From: Thermococcus sp.
GTDB taxonomy: Archaea; Methanobacteriota_B; Thermococci; Thermococcales; Thermococcaceae
Direction: 5' to 3'
Length of the DNA: 64,000 bases
Assembly: GCA_027075325.1 (NCBI GenBank)
Contig: JALTBN010000042.1
Span: 1-64,000, forward strand
The notes beneath the pieces are model-generated. The model was not told where the DNA came from. It searched no databases and saw only the letters and a program-made list of their open reading frames with translations. The translations under genes were made by a program, and so were the position numbers. Shown in pieces: positions 7,253 to 23,930 of this stretch (its first letter is position 1; every line of letters begins with the position of its first letter).

Positions 7253-7488
7253 TGAAAGCTTGGAAGGGATGGAGTGATGCAGTTCTGGATTCAACCAGCA
7301 TGCGGGAGGACTTGAGTATAACGGAAACTTGATAGTTAACGTAATCCTGTTGCGGGCGTCGTCGATCCTCACCACTCCATCATCAATGTACCACATAGGG
7401 GCAGTGGTTTTCATGGTATGCTTCACATTATCATGCCAGAGGCTCTTGAAAGTCTTAGGGTTTAGTTAAACTTTTTAACCTCCTTTCC
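7253..7488. other. Gene-free stretch: array remnant, then leader of the amylase gene
   Basis: The first ~75 bases repeat the 2960-3040 region (end of family 2 and the CATGCGGGAGGACTT anchor start), with several in-frame stops. The remaining ~160 bases show no convincing frame and no similarity to the array. The TATA-like TTAAACTTTTTAA at about 7466-7478 is the probable promoter of the gene at 7511. Confidence 0.5.
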
Positions 7489-7505
7489 TACCACTTCAGG
7501 TGATA
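7489..7505 (+). promoter_or_regulatory. TrmBL1-type operator (TGM-like) before the GH13 gene
   Basis: TACCAC-TTCAG-GTGATA matches the Thermococcales glycolytic motif TATCAC-N5-GTGATA with one mismatch. It lies downstream of the TATA-like TTTTTAA (about 7472-7478) and overlaps the ribosome binding site. A TGM downstream of the TATA box is the arrangement described for genes repressed by TrmBL1 in the absence of maltodextrins. Confidence 0.6.
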
Positions 7506-7510
7506 CTTAA

Positions 7511-9769
7511 ATGCGAAGGGAAGTGGCTTTCATCCTTCTGCTCGTCCTGCTCTCATCCCTGGCTCCAGCTGGCGCGGTTCACTACAACGTCCCGGAGAGG
7601 AGCGTAATCTACCAGGTCATGGTCGACCGCTTCTACGATGGCAACCAGAGCAACGACGAGCCCTTCTACGACCCAACCCATACAAACTACCGCATGTACT
7701 GGGGAGGCGACCTTCAGGGGCTCATCGAGAAGCTCGACTACATCAGAAGCCTTGGAGTGACAGAGATATGGGTCTCCCCGCTCAACGACAACATAAACAC
7801 GATGGCCTACGCGAGCGCGCCCTATCACGGCTACTGGCCGCACGACTTCAAGAGAATAGAAGAGCACTTTGGTGACTGGAAGACGTTTCAGAGGCTTGTG
7901 AAAGAAGCCAGAAAGCGCGGAATGTGCATAATCGTTGACTACGCCCCCAACCACTCGAATCCCTCAAACGCGGGTGAATACGGGGCTCTCTACGACAACG
8001 GCACTAAAGTAGCCGACTACCTCCACGACGCGCAGAAGGCCGTTATAAATCCCTATACCGGGAGTAAGGAGTACATCTACCACCACAACGGTGACATAAG
8101 CCAGTGGTTCGGCTTCCAGCTCAAGTACGCGAACCTCTACGGTCTCGCGGATTTCAACCAGCACAACCCGTGGGTGGACAGATACCTCAAGGATGGGGCT
8201 GAGCTCTTCCTCCGGGAGGGGGCATGCGGCTTCAGGATAGACGCGGTGAAGCACATGGATCGGGGCTGGCTTGAGACCCTATACCTCGACCTCTACTCAA
8301 AATCTAGCACTCCTCTCTTCATCTACGGCGAGTACTACAACACACAGCCCGACAGAACGGACGACCTGTACTCGTTCTACCAGTACTCAAACGTTACCTC
8401 CCTCCTCAGCATCCCAATCAGGGGGGAGCTGGCAAACACGTTCGCCTACGGTGGAAGCCTGGAAGAGCTGGCAAAGGACCTTCAGGAGTATTACTCCACC
8501 TTCGTTTACCCCAACAAGGCAGTGAATTTCCTCGACAGCCACGATCTCGTCAGGTTTCTCAACATGAACCCCAGCAAAAACCGCTTCCACATGGCGCTTG
8601 CGCTCACAATGACGCTTCCGGGGATACCCGTCATCTACTACGGCGACGAGAGCTACCTCGTCAGCAAGGACGGCAAAGGCGATCCGTACAACAGGCCCAT
8701 GATGGTTTTCAACAACACGACCGAGGCGGCGCGCATCATTAGAACCCTTGCTGGGCTGAGGAAGACAAACGATGCCCTCGCCTACGGCGACTTCAAGACC
8801 CTCCATGCCGAATACGCCCTCTGGGCGTTCAGGAGGGACTTTGGGAACCACAGCATCCTCGTCGTCGTCAACAAGAGGTCAGACAAAGAGCTAACCATCC
8901 CCCTCGACTGGCCGGACGGAACTTACACCGACGTTATCAACGGCGTGAGCATGAACGTGAGCGGGGGAAACGCCACAGTAGTCTCCCCCGGAAACAGCAT
9001 CCTAGTGTTCCACAGAGAAGGGAAGCAGAGGAAGCCTCTGATAGGTTCGGTGACCCCGTATTCAGCCCAGCCGGGTGACGTGGTGGCGCTGGCTGGTGCG
9101 GCATTCGGGGACTCCGGAGAGGTTATAATCGACGGGGAGAAGGCCCCCCTCATTAACCGGAGCAACGATCTCGTTCTTTTCAGGGTGCCAAAGCTGAAAA
9201 CGAGCTCCGCCTGGGTGGACGTCTGTATCCAGGGAGAAAACGGGGAGAGCAACCACGTGAAGCTCCGCTATTACAGGGGAAACGAGATACCAGTGCTGAT
9301 AGCAATAAAAGGAGACGACCTAAACGGCTATCTCTGGATAAGGGGCAACGTCCCTGAACTTGCAGAACCAAGGCCGCTCATAAAGTCCTCGACCGGATAC
9401 TACTTCACGGTGGCCCCGCTCCCCAACGGCACCCCCTTCCAGGTGGAGCTTCTCAACGGGCTCCCGTGGGACAAACTCGAACCGACCGGGAAGGTGTATC
9501 ATGGCGTTGCAAACTGGACGACGGTTCTCGAACCCGGACCTCTTCCGGAGCAGACTGAAACGAGCACGATTACAACAACCATCACAACCACCCAGATGGC
9601 GAACAGTTCCTCAACCTTCTCAACAACGAAACAGCCGAGCATTTCTGCATCAACGACCACAACAATCCCAGAAGGAGACTCTTCCACATCCGGCAACAAA
9701 AAGGGCATCTGCGGGCCGGCTCTGGTTTTGGTTCTCGCCCTCCTTCCCGTTCTGAGGAAGAGGGGTTAG
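7511..9769 (+). CDS. Secreted GH13 cyclomaltodextrin glucanotransferase-type enzyme with CGP-CTERM anchor
   Basis: A 752-residue exported enzyme acting on starch-like alpha-1,4-glucans outside the cell. A signal peptide covers residues ~1-22. The GH13 barrel carries conserved regions DYAPNHS (143-149), GFRIDAVKH (240-248, nucleophile D244), FIYGEYY (acid/base E274) and FLDSHD (340-345). KHM..GW after region II is typical of CGTases rather than plain amylases. Residues ~515-595 resemble an IPT/TIG domain and ~595-675 a starch-binding-like domain. A Thr/Ser-rich stalk follows, then CGPALVLVLALLP and RKR at the end, the CGP-CTERM sorting signal of Thermococcales. A TrmBL1-like operator precedes it. 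CGTase versus amylase activity cannot be settled by reading. Confidence 0.88.
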   Translation: MRREVAFILLLVLLSSLAPAGAVHYNVPERSVIYQVMVDRFYDGNQSNDEPFYDPTHTNYRMYWGGDLQGLIEKLDYIRSLGVTEIWVSPLNDNINTMAYASAPYHGYWPHDFKRIEEHFGDWKTFQRLVKEARKRGMCIIVDYAPNHSNPSNAGEYGALYDNGTKVADYLHDAQKAVINPYTGSKEYIYHHNGDISQWFGFQLKYANLYGLADFNQHNPWVDRYLKDGAELFLREGACGFRIDAVKHMDRGWLETLYLDLYSKSSTPLFIYGEYYNTQPDRTDDLYSFYQYSNVTSLLSIPIRGELANTFAYGGSLEELAKDLQEYYSTFVYPNKAVNFLDSHDLVRFLNMNPSKNRFHMALALTMTLPGIPVIYYGDESYLVSKDGKGDPYNRPMMVFNNTTEAARIIRTLAGLRKTNDALAYGDFKTLHAEYALWAFRRDFGNHSILVVVNKRSDKELTIPLDWPDGTYTDVINGVSMNVSGGNATVVSPGNSILVFHREGKQRKPLIGSVTPYSAQPGDVVALAGAAFGDSGEVIIDGEKAPLINRSNDLVLFRVPKLKTSSAWVDVCIQGENGESNHVKLRYYRGNEIPVLIAIKGDDLNGYLWIRGNVPELAEPRPLIKSSTGYYFTVAPLPNGTPFQVELLNGLPWDKLEPTGKVYHGVANWTTVLEPGPLPEQTETSTITTTITTTQMANSSSTFSTTKQPSISASTTTTIPEGDSSTSGNKKGICGPALVLVLALLPVLRKRG

Positions 9770-21910: not shown

Positions 21911-23872
21911 TCAATGAAGCTCCCTAAACCTCAGCCTAAAGCGTAGCTCCCCCTCCAGCGGCAAGAGAAGCGTGTAGCTGACGCCCTGCTGGATGAAGTC
22001 CCAGCCGCTCTCGCTCTGGCTGAGGGTTTTTATTGGGTACTTCCATACCCTCGCTTTTTTATCGAGCTCTATTCTCGCCCTGCCCATACCGTAGGGGTCG
22101 TTCACTTCGAAGCTATCAGCCTCGAACTCCCCCGGCTCTTCCATCACGCTGTGAACGGCCAGGTTGAGTTCAACGCCGAACAGTGCCCTTGAGTCGCTCC
22201 TCACGGTGTAGTCCACCATGAAGCCGTCCTCGGTAAGCCTCACGGACTTCTCGACGCGGGCTGGCTTTTTAGCAACGCTTCCGTCGCGCTCAAGGGTTAT
22301 CCCGTTCTCAAAGAGACCAAAGTCGTAGGCACCGGTGAGGAAGTCTCCCAGCTCGACATAACGGTTCAACCTGTACTCGTCGAGGGTCGTCTCCGGCTCT
22401 GTGAAGTGATCCTGCAGAAGGGCCCTGAGATGACTGTCGTAAGCTAATTCTCGCCTTATCTCGTCGGGTATCCTCCTGCCGACCTCGTGGATGCTGGCTA
22501 CACCTTCGTTTTCATCTTCCTCTGGTGTGGCAGCCTCCGGAACCTCGTGGTAGTGCTCCCACCGCCTCGCTATAACGTCGTTGTAGTTCACCGCCTTCCT
22601 CTTGGAGGAGAACTCGAAGAGGGCACCGCCGTAGGCAGGCTTGAAGACCGCGTAGAAGTCCTTGTTCTCCAGAAAGACCTCGTCCATTCCATCAAAGTCT
22701 ATGTCCCTAACGAAGCTGCCCATGGGGACGCGGGAGTTGGCCCTTATGATGTTCTCCCAGACGGCCCTGCGGAGGTGCGGGAGGTAAACCCCGCCAAAGA
22801 CGCCGTGCCAGTAGGCGTCGTTGCACTGGGCCTTAAGGATGAACTCCCTCGCCTCCGGATTATCCCGGACGAGCTTGCTAACCATGAGCATCCTCTTGTG
22901 CATGTAGTTGCTCTCAGGATACTTGAAGAAGAAGTTCTTCCAGATGCCACCACGGACGAAGACGCGGTACTTTTCGAACTGGTTCTGCTCCTTAAGCTTC
23001 TCCACGAACTCGACGAAGAGCTTCGCCTGCCTAGCCGGCAGGGACCACTCGCTCATCTCGAAGTAGGAAGCTATCGGGAGGTAGACGAGGCCCCTCGGCC
23101 TGAAGCGGGAGAGGTATTCAGAGTAGAGCATGAGGTTTATTCTCTCGTCGCTGGAAACCCTGTCGAAGAACTCCCTGAGCCAGCACTTCTCGTAGACCCA
23201 CTCATGGGTTCCGGGCCAGACGCCGAACTTCTCACCGTCGTCGTGGAAAACCGCGACCTTGCTCTCGTCCCCGTCGTCGAGGGAGTGGAGGTATTCAAGG
23301 GTCTTCTCGACGGGCCTGAACGGGATCAGATAGCGGAGCTTTTCATCTATCGGGAAGACCGCTATGACCTGTCCGCCGTCCTCGGTGTAGTAGGGCCAGT
23401 AGAGTTCTTCCTTGGAAAGGCCGGCGCTCATGAAATGGTAATCATCTACAATAACGTAATCTATCCCTGCCGCGCGGAGGCTCTTCACGAGCTCCGGCTG
23501 CCAGACGCGCTCGGTGAGCCAGACCCCCTTAGCCTCGTAGCCGAGGTTTTTAGCGAACTCTCTGAGCTTCTCTATCTGGACTATCCTGTCCTCCTTCGGA
23601 ATTGAAGCTAAGACGGGCTCATAGAAACCCGCCACAACTATCTCAAGCTGGCCCTTCTTCACGAGGGAGCGGAGAAGGTCGAGGTGCTCCGGCCTGTTGT
23701 CCAGTATCCACTCGAGGAGCGGGCCGGAGTAGTGGGCTGCGACCTTCATGTTTGGGTAATCCTCCAAGGTTTCCATAAAGGGCCTGTATGAGCGATCGTA
23801 GGCGCTCTCCATCACCCAGCCAAAGTTTCCGAGGGGCTGATGGTTGTGTATACCGAAGACGAAGTTCACCAT
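21911..23872 (-). CDS. GH57 4-alpha-glucanotransferase
   Basis: A 653-residue cytoplasmic enzyme transferring maltodextrin segments between alpha-1,4-glucans. It follows the Thermococcus litoralis 4-alpha-glucanotransferase pattern along its whole length: FGIHNHQPLGNFG at the start, WLTERVWQPE with nucleophile E121, FHDDGEKFG with the acid/base Asp (211-212), WKNFFFKYPESN near 330 and a C-terminal beta-domain. ATG 23872 is preceded by GGTGG, and an in-frame extension upstream has no family similarity. No signal peptide is present. A TrmBL1-type operator and TATA box lie 20-60 bases upstream, indicating control by maltodextrins. Confidence 0.93.
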   Translation of the reverse strand: MVNFVFGIHNHQPLGNFGWVMESAYDRSYRPFMETLEDYPNMKVAAHYSGPLLEWILDNRPEHLDLLRSLVKKGQLEIVVAGFYEPVLASIPKEDRIVQIEKLREFAKNLGYEAKGVWLTERVWQPELVKSLRAAGIDYVIVDDYHFMSAGLSKEELYWPYYTEDGGQVIAVFPIDEKLRYLIPFRPVEKTLEYLHSLDDGDESKVAVFHDDGEKFGVWPGTHEWVYEKCWLREFFDRVSSDERINLMLYSEYLSRFRPRGLVYLPIASYFEMSEWSLPARQAKLFVEFVEKLKEQNQFEKYRVFVRGGIWKNFFFKYPESNYMHKRMLMVSKLVRDNPEAREFILKAQCNDAYWHGVFGGVYLPHLRRAVWENIIRANSRVPMGSFVRDIDFDGMDEVFLENKDFYAVFKPAYGGALFEFSSKRKAVNYNDVIARRWEHYHEVPEAATPEEDENEGVASIHEVGRRIPDEIRRELAYDSHLRALLQDHFTEPETTLDEYRLNRYVELGDFLTGAYDFGLFENGITLERDGSVAKKPARVEKSVRLTEDGFMVDYTVRSDSRALFGVELNLAVHSVMEEPGEFEADSFEVNDPYGMGRARIELDKKARVWKYPIKTLSQSESGWDFIQQGVSYTLLLPLEGELRFRLRFRELH

Positions 23873-23892
23873 TGGCAACCACCCTGCATCAT

Positions 23893-23930
23893 TATCACTA
23901 CTGGTGATACAGAATTGAGGTATAAATACT
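23893..23930 (-). promoter_or_regulatory. Thermococcales glycolytic motif (TrmBL1 operator) and TATA box
   Basis: TATCAC-TACTG-GTGATA at 23893-23909 is a perfect copy of the motif TATCAC-N5-GTGATA. On the minus strand a TATA box (AGTATTTATA, 23920-23930) lies upstream of it. The operator would cover the transcription start of the 4-alpha-glucanotransferase gene, the configuration known for repression by TrmBL1 and relief by maltotriose or maltose. Confidence 0.85.

Follow-up and report, generated by a model that had tools for sequence, protein, structure and literature searches.

We interpret positions 7489-7505 of the forward strand, with high confidence, as an operator for TrmBL1/Tgr within the glycolytic regulon of the Thermococcales, at which an extracellular CGTase would be repressed. 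The sequence, its conservation and placement, the regulator gene and the set of sites were observed directly; binding, repression, inducer and transcription start are what we infer. A known repressor that senses sugar very probably binds the palindrome. When maltodextrins are lacking, the regulator would occupy 7489-7505, just past the TATA box and over the predicted start around 7498-7502, and once bound would bar RNA polymerase from the CGTase promoter. Maltotriose or maltose derived from imported starch products would then release it. A GH57 4-alpha-glucanotransferase gene displays the same arrangement, and both enzymes would thus rise together on alpha-glucans. In addition, the right half-site with the preceding spacer base (GGTGAT) would act as the ribosome-binding sequence.

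Operator sequence and promoter layout

The window, i.e. the whole 64-kb stretch of DNA analysed (64,000 nt), contains the following features, for which coordinates and strand are given.

7466-7471, forward: possible BRE, TTAAAC; sequence read directly, role suggested by position only
7472-7478, forward: TATA-like box TTTTTAA, 10 nt before the TGM motif
7489-7505, forward: TGM operator TACCAC-TTCAG-GTGATA, predicted TrmBL1/Tgr site, overlapping the predicted transcription start
7499-7504, forward: ribosome-binding sequence GGTGAT, made up of spacer base 5 and the right half-site; the ATG follows after 6 nt
7511-9769, forward: CGTase-like GH13 enzyme, 752 aa (Pfam PF00128, PF16657, PF01833)
9707-9763, forward: CGP-CTERM sorting tail of the GH13 enzyme (TIGR04288, 26.7 bits, cut-off 21)
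21911-23872, reverse: GH57 4-alpha-glucanotransferase, 653 aa from the ATG used (Pfam PF03065, PF09094, PF09095)
23878-23883, reverse: separate ribosome-binding sequence GGTGGT of the GH57 gene; sequence read directly, fits GGDGRD
23893-23909, reverse: perfect TGM before the GH57 gene, perfect in 30/30 orthologs (the best-scoring 30)
23921-23926, reverse: TTTATA, the TATA box of the GH57 gene, whose TGM follows after 11 nt; sequence read directly

The operator sequence TACCACTTCAGGTGATA (forward strand) agrees with the TGM consensus TATCAC-N5-GTGATA in 11 of the 12 half-site bases of the palindrome. The left half TACCAC carries a single T to C change at its third base, the spacer is TTCAG, the right half GTGATA is perfect, and the ATG of the GH13 gene at 7511 lies 5 nt past the end of the motif. 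Direct reading of this segment confirmed the original prediction of a site one base from the consensus, which overlaps the ribosome-binding site (GGTGAT, 7499-7504) downstream of a TATA-like box (TTTTTAA, 7472-7478), and the perfect copy announced for the GH57 gene was recovered at 23893-23909 on the reverse strand.

These two sites were the only ones in the window with at most one mismatch to TGM; dinucleotide shuffles of the window produced a mean of 0.07 such sites and none of 100 shuffles reached two. At two mismatches or fewer the window still holds 2 sites where 1.23 are expected, a count equalled or exceeded in 34 of 100 shuffles; it is unremarkable, and the significance of the excess therefore rests on the one-mismatch level. 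In Markov simulations of 150 nt resembling the region upstream of the GH13 gene, an equally good match appeared in 8 of 20000 runs. When the right half was taken as given, being a ribosome-binding site, an equally good left half arose in 179 of 20000 runs (ca. 0.9%).

The mismatched base falls at a position where the motif derived from P. furiosus ChIP data has T or C (PMC4706686), its 19 positions being placed on TGM by our own alignment. Outside the half-sites the agreement with that motif is partial: the two bases just before the site (CC) depart from it, as does spacer base 3 (C).

The transcription start of the CGTase gene was predicted at ca. 7498-7502 from the TATA distance only, by use of the reported TATA-to-start distance of 23 bp (PMC4247193); the same study reports the BRE of T. 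kodakarensis at a median of 33 bp upstream of the transcription start. The operator is located downstream of the possible BRE and the TATA-like box, as for repressed genes. A gap of 10-13 nt between TATA and the motif was found in 34 of 44 promoters of CGTase orthologs with a TATA regular expression, and the other 10 promoters, which did not match the expression, were judged by eye to contain variant A/T-rich boxes.

The two glucan-processing enzymes

The GH13 protein contains the Pfam domains alpha-amylase (PF00128), maltogenic amylase C (PF16657) and IPT/TIG (PF01833). Its best relatives of solved structure were mostly CGTases, the second-best being the alpha-amylase 1qho, and the best of these alignments stop by about residue 623. 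Bacterial CGTases carry a C-terminal CBM20 (E domain). No Pfam match to CBM20 was obtained in the GH13 protein at E 0.001, and the enzyme is for this reason called CGTase-like and distinguished from the bacterial five-domain form. On the basis of domains and best matches, the product of 7511-9769 was classed as CGTase-like, and it is a candidate for cyclodextrin formation from starch. We take TK2172 to be the gene number of the CGTase of T. kodakarensis. This number does not occur in the available part of the T. kodakarensis transcriptome paper (PMC4247193).

An N-terminal signal-like stretch was recognised by eye. To the description of the GH13 enzyme as secreted a C-terminal tail (9530-9766 of the window) has to be added, which is Thr/Ser-rich and ends in CGP-CTERM (TIGR04288), so that anchoring at the cell surface is possible.

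The GH57 protein aligns over its full length with 1k1w, a 4-alpha-glucanotransferase of solved structure (1163.5 bits). A perfect TGM precedes the GH57 gene in all of the 30 best-scoring orthologs out of roughly 80. In the 24 of these genomes with both genes, the GH57 and CGTase sites were perfect and perfect in 18, perfect and one mismatch in 5, and perfect and four mismatches in one. The prediction that extracellular and intracellular glucan enzymes are co-regulated thus gains support from conserved sites at both genes, from the regulator gene, from the set of sugar-gene sites, and from the published P. furiosus targets; for the present genome, co-regulation is a prediction.

TGM sites in the whole genome

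In total, 17 sites with at most one mismatch to TGM were identified in the whole genome, compared to none for a reversed control pattern. Thirteen of them are situated at 12 sugar-metabolism genes, i.e. class I FBP aldolase, phosphoglycerate mutase, ADP-glucokinase, glucose-6-phosphate isomerase, enolase, FBP aldolase/phosphatase (two sites), GAPOR, alpha-amylase, triose-phosphate isomerase (TPI), maltodextrin phosphorylase, GH57 and CGTase. The GH57 site alone is perfect, the 12 others having one mismatch each; one mismatch is thus usual at the sugar genes of this genome, and the CGTase site is no exception. The remaining four sites were found before a 49-aa ORF, near no clear gene, before a 490-aa protein without family, and inside an ORF.

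The two sites of FBP aldolase/phosphatase (L060:2032-2096, contig C60) are TGM-like, 31 nt apart, and upstream of the TATA-like box of the gene, downstream of which GAPOR follows with its own TGM-like site. A TGM upstream of TATA is the position published for activation (PMC4706686, PMC4158304).

The 490-aa protein (L065:675-2168, contig C39) is preceded at 4 nt by the one-mismatch TGM TATCACCGGGAGGGATA. Searches against Pfam and NCBIfam gave nothing for it at E 0.001. Its N-terminus contains a hydrophobic stretch, and it could belong to the sugar regulon as another surface protein. The 49-aa ORF (MIARVVYYHERS...; L063:2060-2242, contig C91), also preceded by a one-mismatch TGM, has just upstream of it a second 49-aa ORF, which is similar by eye.

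Conservation and loosening of the CGTase operator

Orthologs of the CGTase gene were present in 44 of the 94 genomes of the family, a set in which incomplete genomes were retained; the copy of genome G029 is broken, and its promoter was counted. A 45%-identical second CGTase-like gene in G093 (contig C10) was left out of the 44, and loci L037-L040, which share contigs with four loci of the family search, were excluded from the counts. A wider scan covered 250 nt. In G029 the operator of the broken gene is still perfect (L054), and the GH57 match of this genome is likewise in two pieces.

The best TGM-like 17-mer near the start was perfect in 37 orthologs, had one mismatch in five (including 7489-7505), two in one and four in one; a site adjoining the start with at most two mismatches was accordingly found in 43 of 44. 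Across the 44 promoters TATCAC was exact in 39 and GTGATA in 41, and the left core CAC in all. Mean identity was 49% in the 30 nt upstream, 96% in the half-sites, 95% in the left half and 54% in spacer bases 1-4. When the promoters were clustered, 22 of 28 clusters held a perfect TGM.

In a tree of the CGTase N-terminus, which covers about the first 330 residues and in which the row of G029 is unreliable (very long branch), the gene at 7511-9769 grouped with those of G042, G030, G020 and G072 with support 100/99. Off-consensus operators were found in all five members of this clade, compared to 2 of 39 elsewhere. The form TACCAC-N5-GTGATA is common to this genome and G030; C at the third base occurs in G042 too, along with further changes. 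G020 and G072 have instead an altered last base of the operator. In G042, whose CGTase is the most similar (85%), the site is reduced to a four-mismatch remnant, although the regulator is 94% identical and the GH57 site perfect.

Control of the CGTase may consequently be weaker in this lineage, and its strength in the present genome is uncertain because the sites of the clade are off-consensus and that of G042 is gone. With the operator of the outer enzyme loosening and that of the inner enzyme perfect, the clade is a natural experiment on the departure of genes from a regulon.

The same pattern can be read as decay, with 7489-7505 as the relic of an operator that was functional in the ancestor and with TrmBL1 control since weakened or lost in the clade: the five members have departed from the consensus by at least two different changes, and one has lost the site. 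This reading is unlikely, as one mismatch is normal in this genome (12 of 13 sugar-gene sites), the changed base is of the kind allowed by the ChIP motif of P. furiosus (PMC4706686), and G030 keeps the identical TACCAC-N5-GTGATA. A functional operator is the preferred reading of the site.

Operator and ribosome-binding sequence

The spacer base before the right half-site was G in 44/44 CGTase promoters, and its mirror base T in 34 and C in 10 of them. A symmetrical palindrome would give A at this position in most promoters. Together with the right half-site the G forms GGTGAT in 43 of the 44 orthologs and GGTGAA in G042, and both hexamers, the former at 7499-7504 here, fit the ribosome-binding consensus GGDGRD reported for T. 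kodakarensis (PMC4247193) and, as the published consensus, also for T. onnurineus. A search of this genome for a 16S 3′-end with the bacterial-type pattern gave no match; with one base left open, a single match resembling a 16S 3′-end was obtained (GGCTCGATCACCTCC, C7:393-407), a candidate 16S end in which ATCACC pairs with GGTGAT.

The GH57 gene has its ribosome-binding sequence (e.g. GGTGGT) apart from the operator, further downstream; in its promoters the same base was A in 30/30 (the 30 best-scoring), and in paired comparison A at GH57 was opposed to G at CGTase in 24/24 genomes. When every family hit combining a perfect TGM with a distinct GGTG ahead of an ATG was counted, A was found in 82 and G in 6 of 88, many of these being the same GH57 gene and thus not independent.

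Within the present genome, the six sugar-gene sites ending at most 6 nt from the start all have G (aldolase, phosphoglycerate mutase, glucokinase, enolase, TPI and CGTase). An exception is the non-sugar site of L065, 4 nt before the start, which has A and reads GGGAGGGATA, another possible ribosome-binding sequence. Of the sites further from the start, those of GAPOR, GH57 and the 49-aa ORF have A; those of alpha-amylase, maltodextrin phosphorylase, glucose-6-phosphate isomerase and one of the two FBP aldolase/phosphatase sites have G, and the other FBP aldolase/phosphatase site has C.

On balance we favour, with moderate confidence, the reading that repressor operator and ribosome-binding site constitute one composite element at the CGTase gene, in which the right half-site plus one G is the Shine-Dalgarno sequence. 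A single stretch would then be recognised by two partners. The commoner flanking A would have yielded to G where the ribosome was served, and the ribosome-binding part would stay when the operator is lost, as in G042. Alternatively, the G/A base could mark the transcription start, expected nearby from the 23-bp TATA distance; both genes then have a purine, however, and a start alone does not explain G at one gene and A at the other. Read in this way, the promoter is a clear archaeal example in which one half of an operator probably doubles as the ribosome-binding site. No statement of such an overlap was found in the open-access papers searched; the founding TGM/Tgr papers, reportedly those of van de Werken 2006, Kanai 2007 and Lee 2007/2008, may contain one. 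The view that the operators drift everywhere except in GGTGA was dropped, as the left core CAC is equally invariant (44/44).

A rival reading, in which the match at 7489-7505 is mainly the ribosome-binding site GGTGAT and the left half TACCAC is there by chance, is very improbable. GGTGAT fits GGDGRD at 6 nt before the ATG, GGTGAA continues to fit in G042 where the operator is lost, and a chance of ca. 0.9% for the left half is not negligible in a whole-genome search. Conservation of the left half nearly equal to that of the right (39 versus 41 exact of 44), while spacer bases 1-4 drift, nevertheless argues strongly against conservation of a ribosome-binding site alone, and the same motif occurs at other sugar genes, some of them with a separate ribosome-binding site.

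The regulator

One strong match to the TrmB effector domain was identified in the genome, a 341-aa ORF on contig C26 (PF11495, 195.9 bits, 1-230 of 233). It carries Y49 and D50 of the DNA-reading region as well as G324 and E330 (counted by hand), which are the residues listed for Tgr of T. kodakarensis (PMC4158304). About 40 nt before the start of this trmBL1 ORF, where the contig begins, lies the two-mismatch TGM TATCACTAAGGATGATT (L005:10-26, contig C26), which would fit the autoregulation proposed for Tgr.

Relatives of the regulator with at least 67% identity were present in 83 of the 94 genomes of the family (in two pieces in G062, partial in G053), including all 44 CGTase-bearing genomes (at least 69% identity). 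None of the 11 genomes without the regulator carries the CGTase (Fisher p 0.0007, with 7 of the 11 assemblies at most 81% complete and the genomes related). Little weight attaches to this co-occurrence, given that the regulator is found in 83 of 94 genomes anyway, that assemblies are incomplete and that the genomes are related.

That a different TrmB-type regulator uses 7489-7505 has very little probability: PF01978, the TrmB HTH model, has 22 matches in the genome besides TrmBL1 (9 above cut-off), one being a 264-aa TrmBL2-like protein with a weaker effector-domain match (35.5 bits, 1-136), but only the TrmBL1 protein has a strong and near full-length one, TGM binding is assigned to TrmBL1/Tgr in print (PMC4158304), and the CGTase of T. 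barophilus is reported to be controlled independently of TrmBL4 (PMC10667668).

Comparison with known systems

For TrmBL1 and Tgr, repression is reported to proceed from sites downstream of TATA by interference with RNA polymerase, with maltose, maltotriose and fructose as inducers for TrmBL1 and maltotriose for Tgr (PMC4158304). The Tgr of T. kodakarensis (TK1769) has 341 aa and the residues Y49, D50, G324 and E330, as does the regulator on contig C26 (PMC4158304).

The CGTase of T. barophilus (TERMP_01455) is reported to be controlled by maltose/maltodextrin, independent of trmBL4 deletion, and was found in the culture supernatant, whereas the enzyme described here has a CGP-CTERM tail; the regulator is not identified in the available part of that study (PMC10667668). 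The same source reports a complete TGM at the maltodextrin transporter of T. barophilus and none at the other regulated glycolytic genes, which counts against the operator reading proposed here (PMC10667668).

In P. furiosus, regulation of both enzymes by TrmBL1 is already known: PF0478 (proposed extracellular CGTase) and PF0272 (proposed 4-alpha-glucanotransferase) both appear in the list of TrmBL1 targets from ChIP-seq, their TGM lying downstream of the promoter, and binding is reported under gluconeogenic conditions and none under glycolytic conditions (PMC4706686). Enzyme pair, palindrome and placement downstream of the promoter elements are the same as here, the orthology resting on published product names. 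The CGTase site of the present genome differs in its one mismatch (TACCAC), and is a predicted TrmBL1 target. The operator is thus best regarded as a new member of a known regulon, and the arrangement of P. furiosus holds in most genomes of the family that have the outer enzyme.
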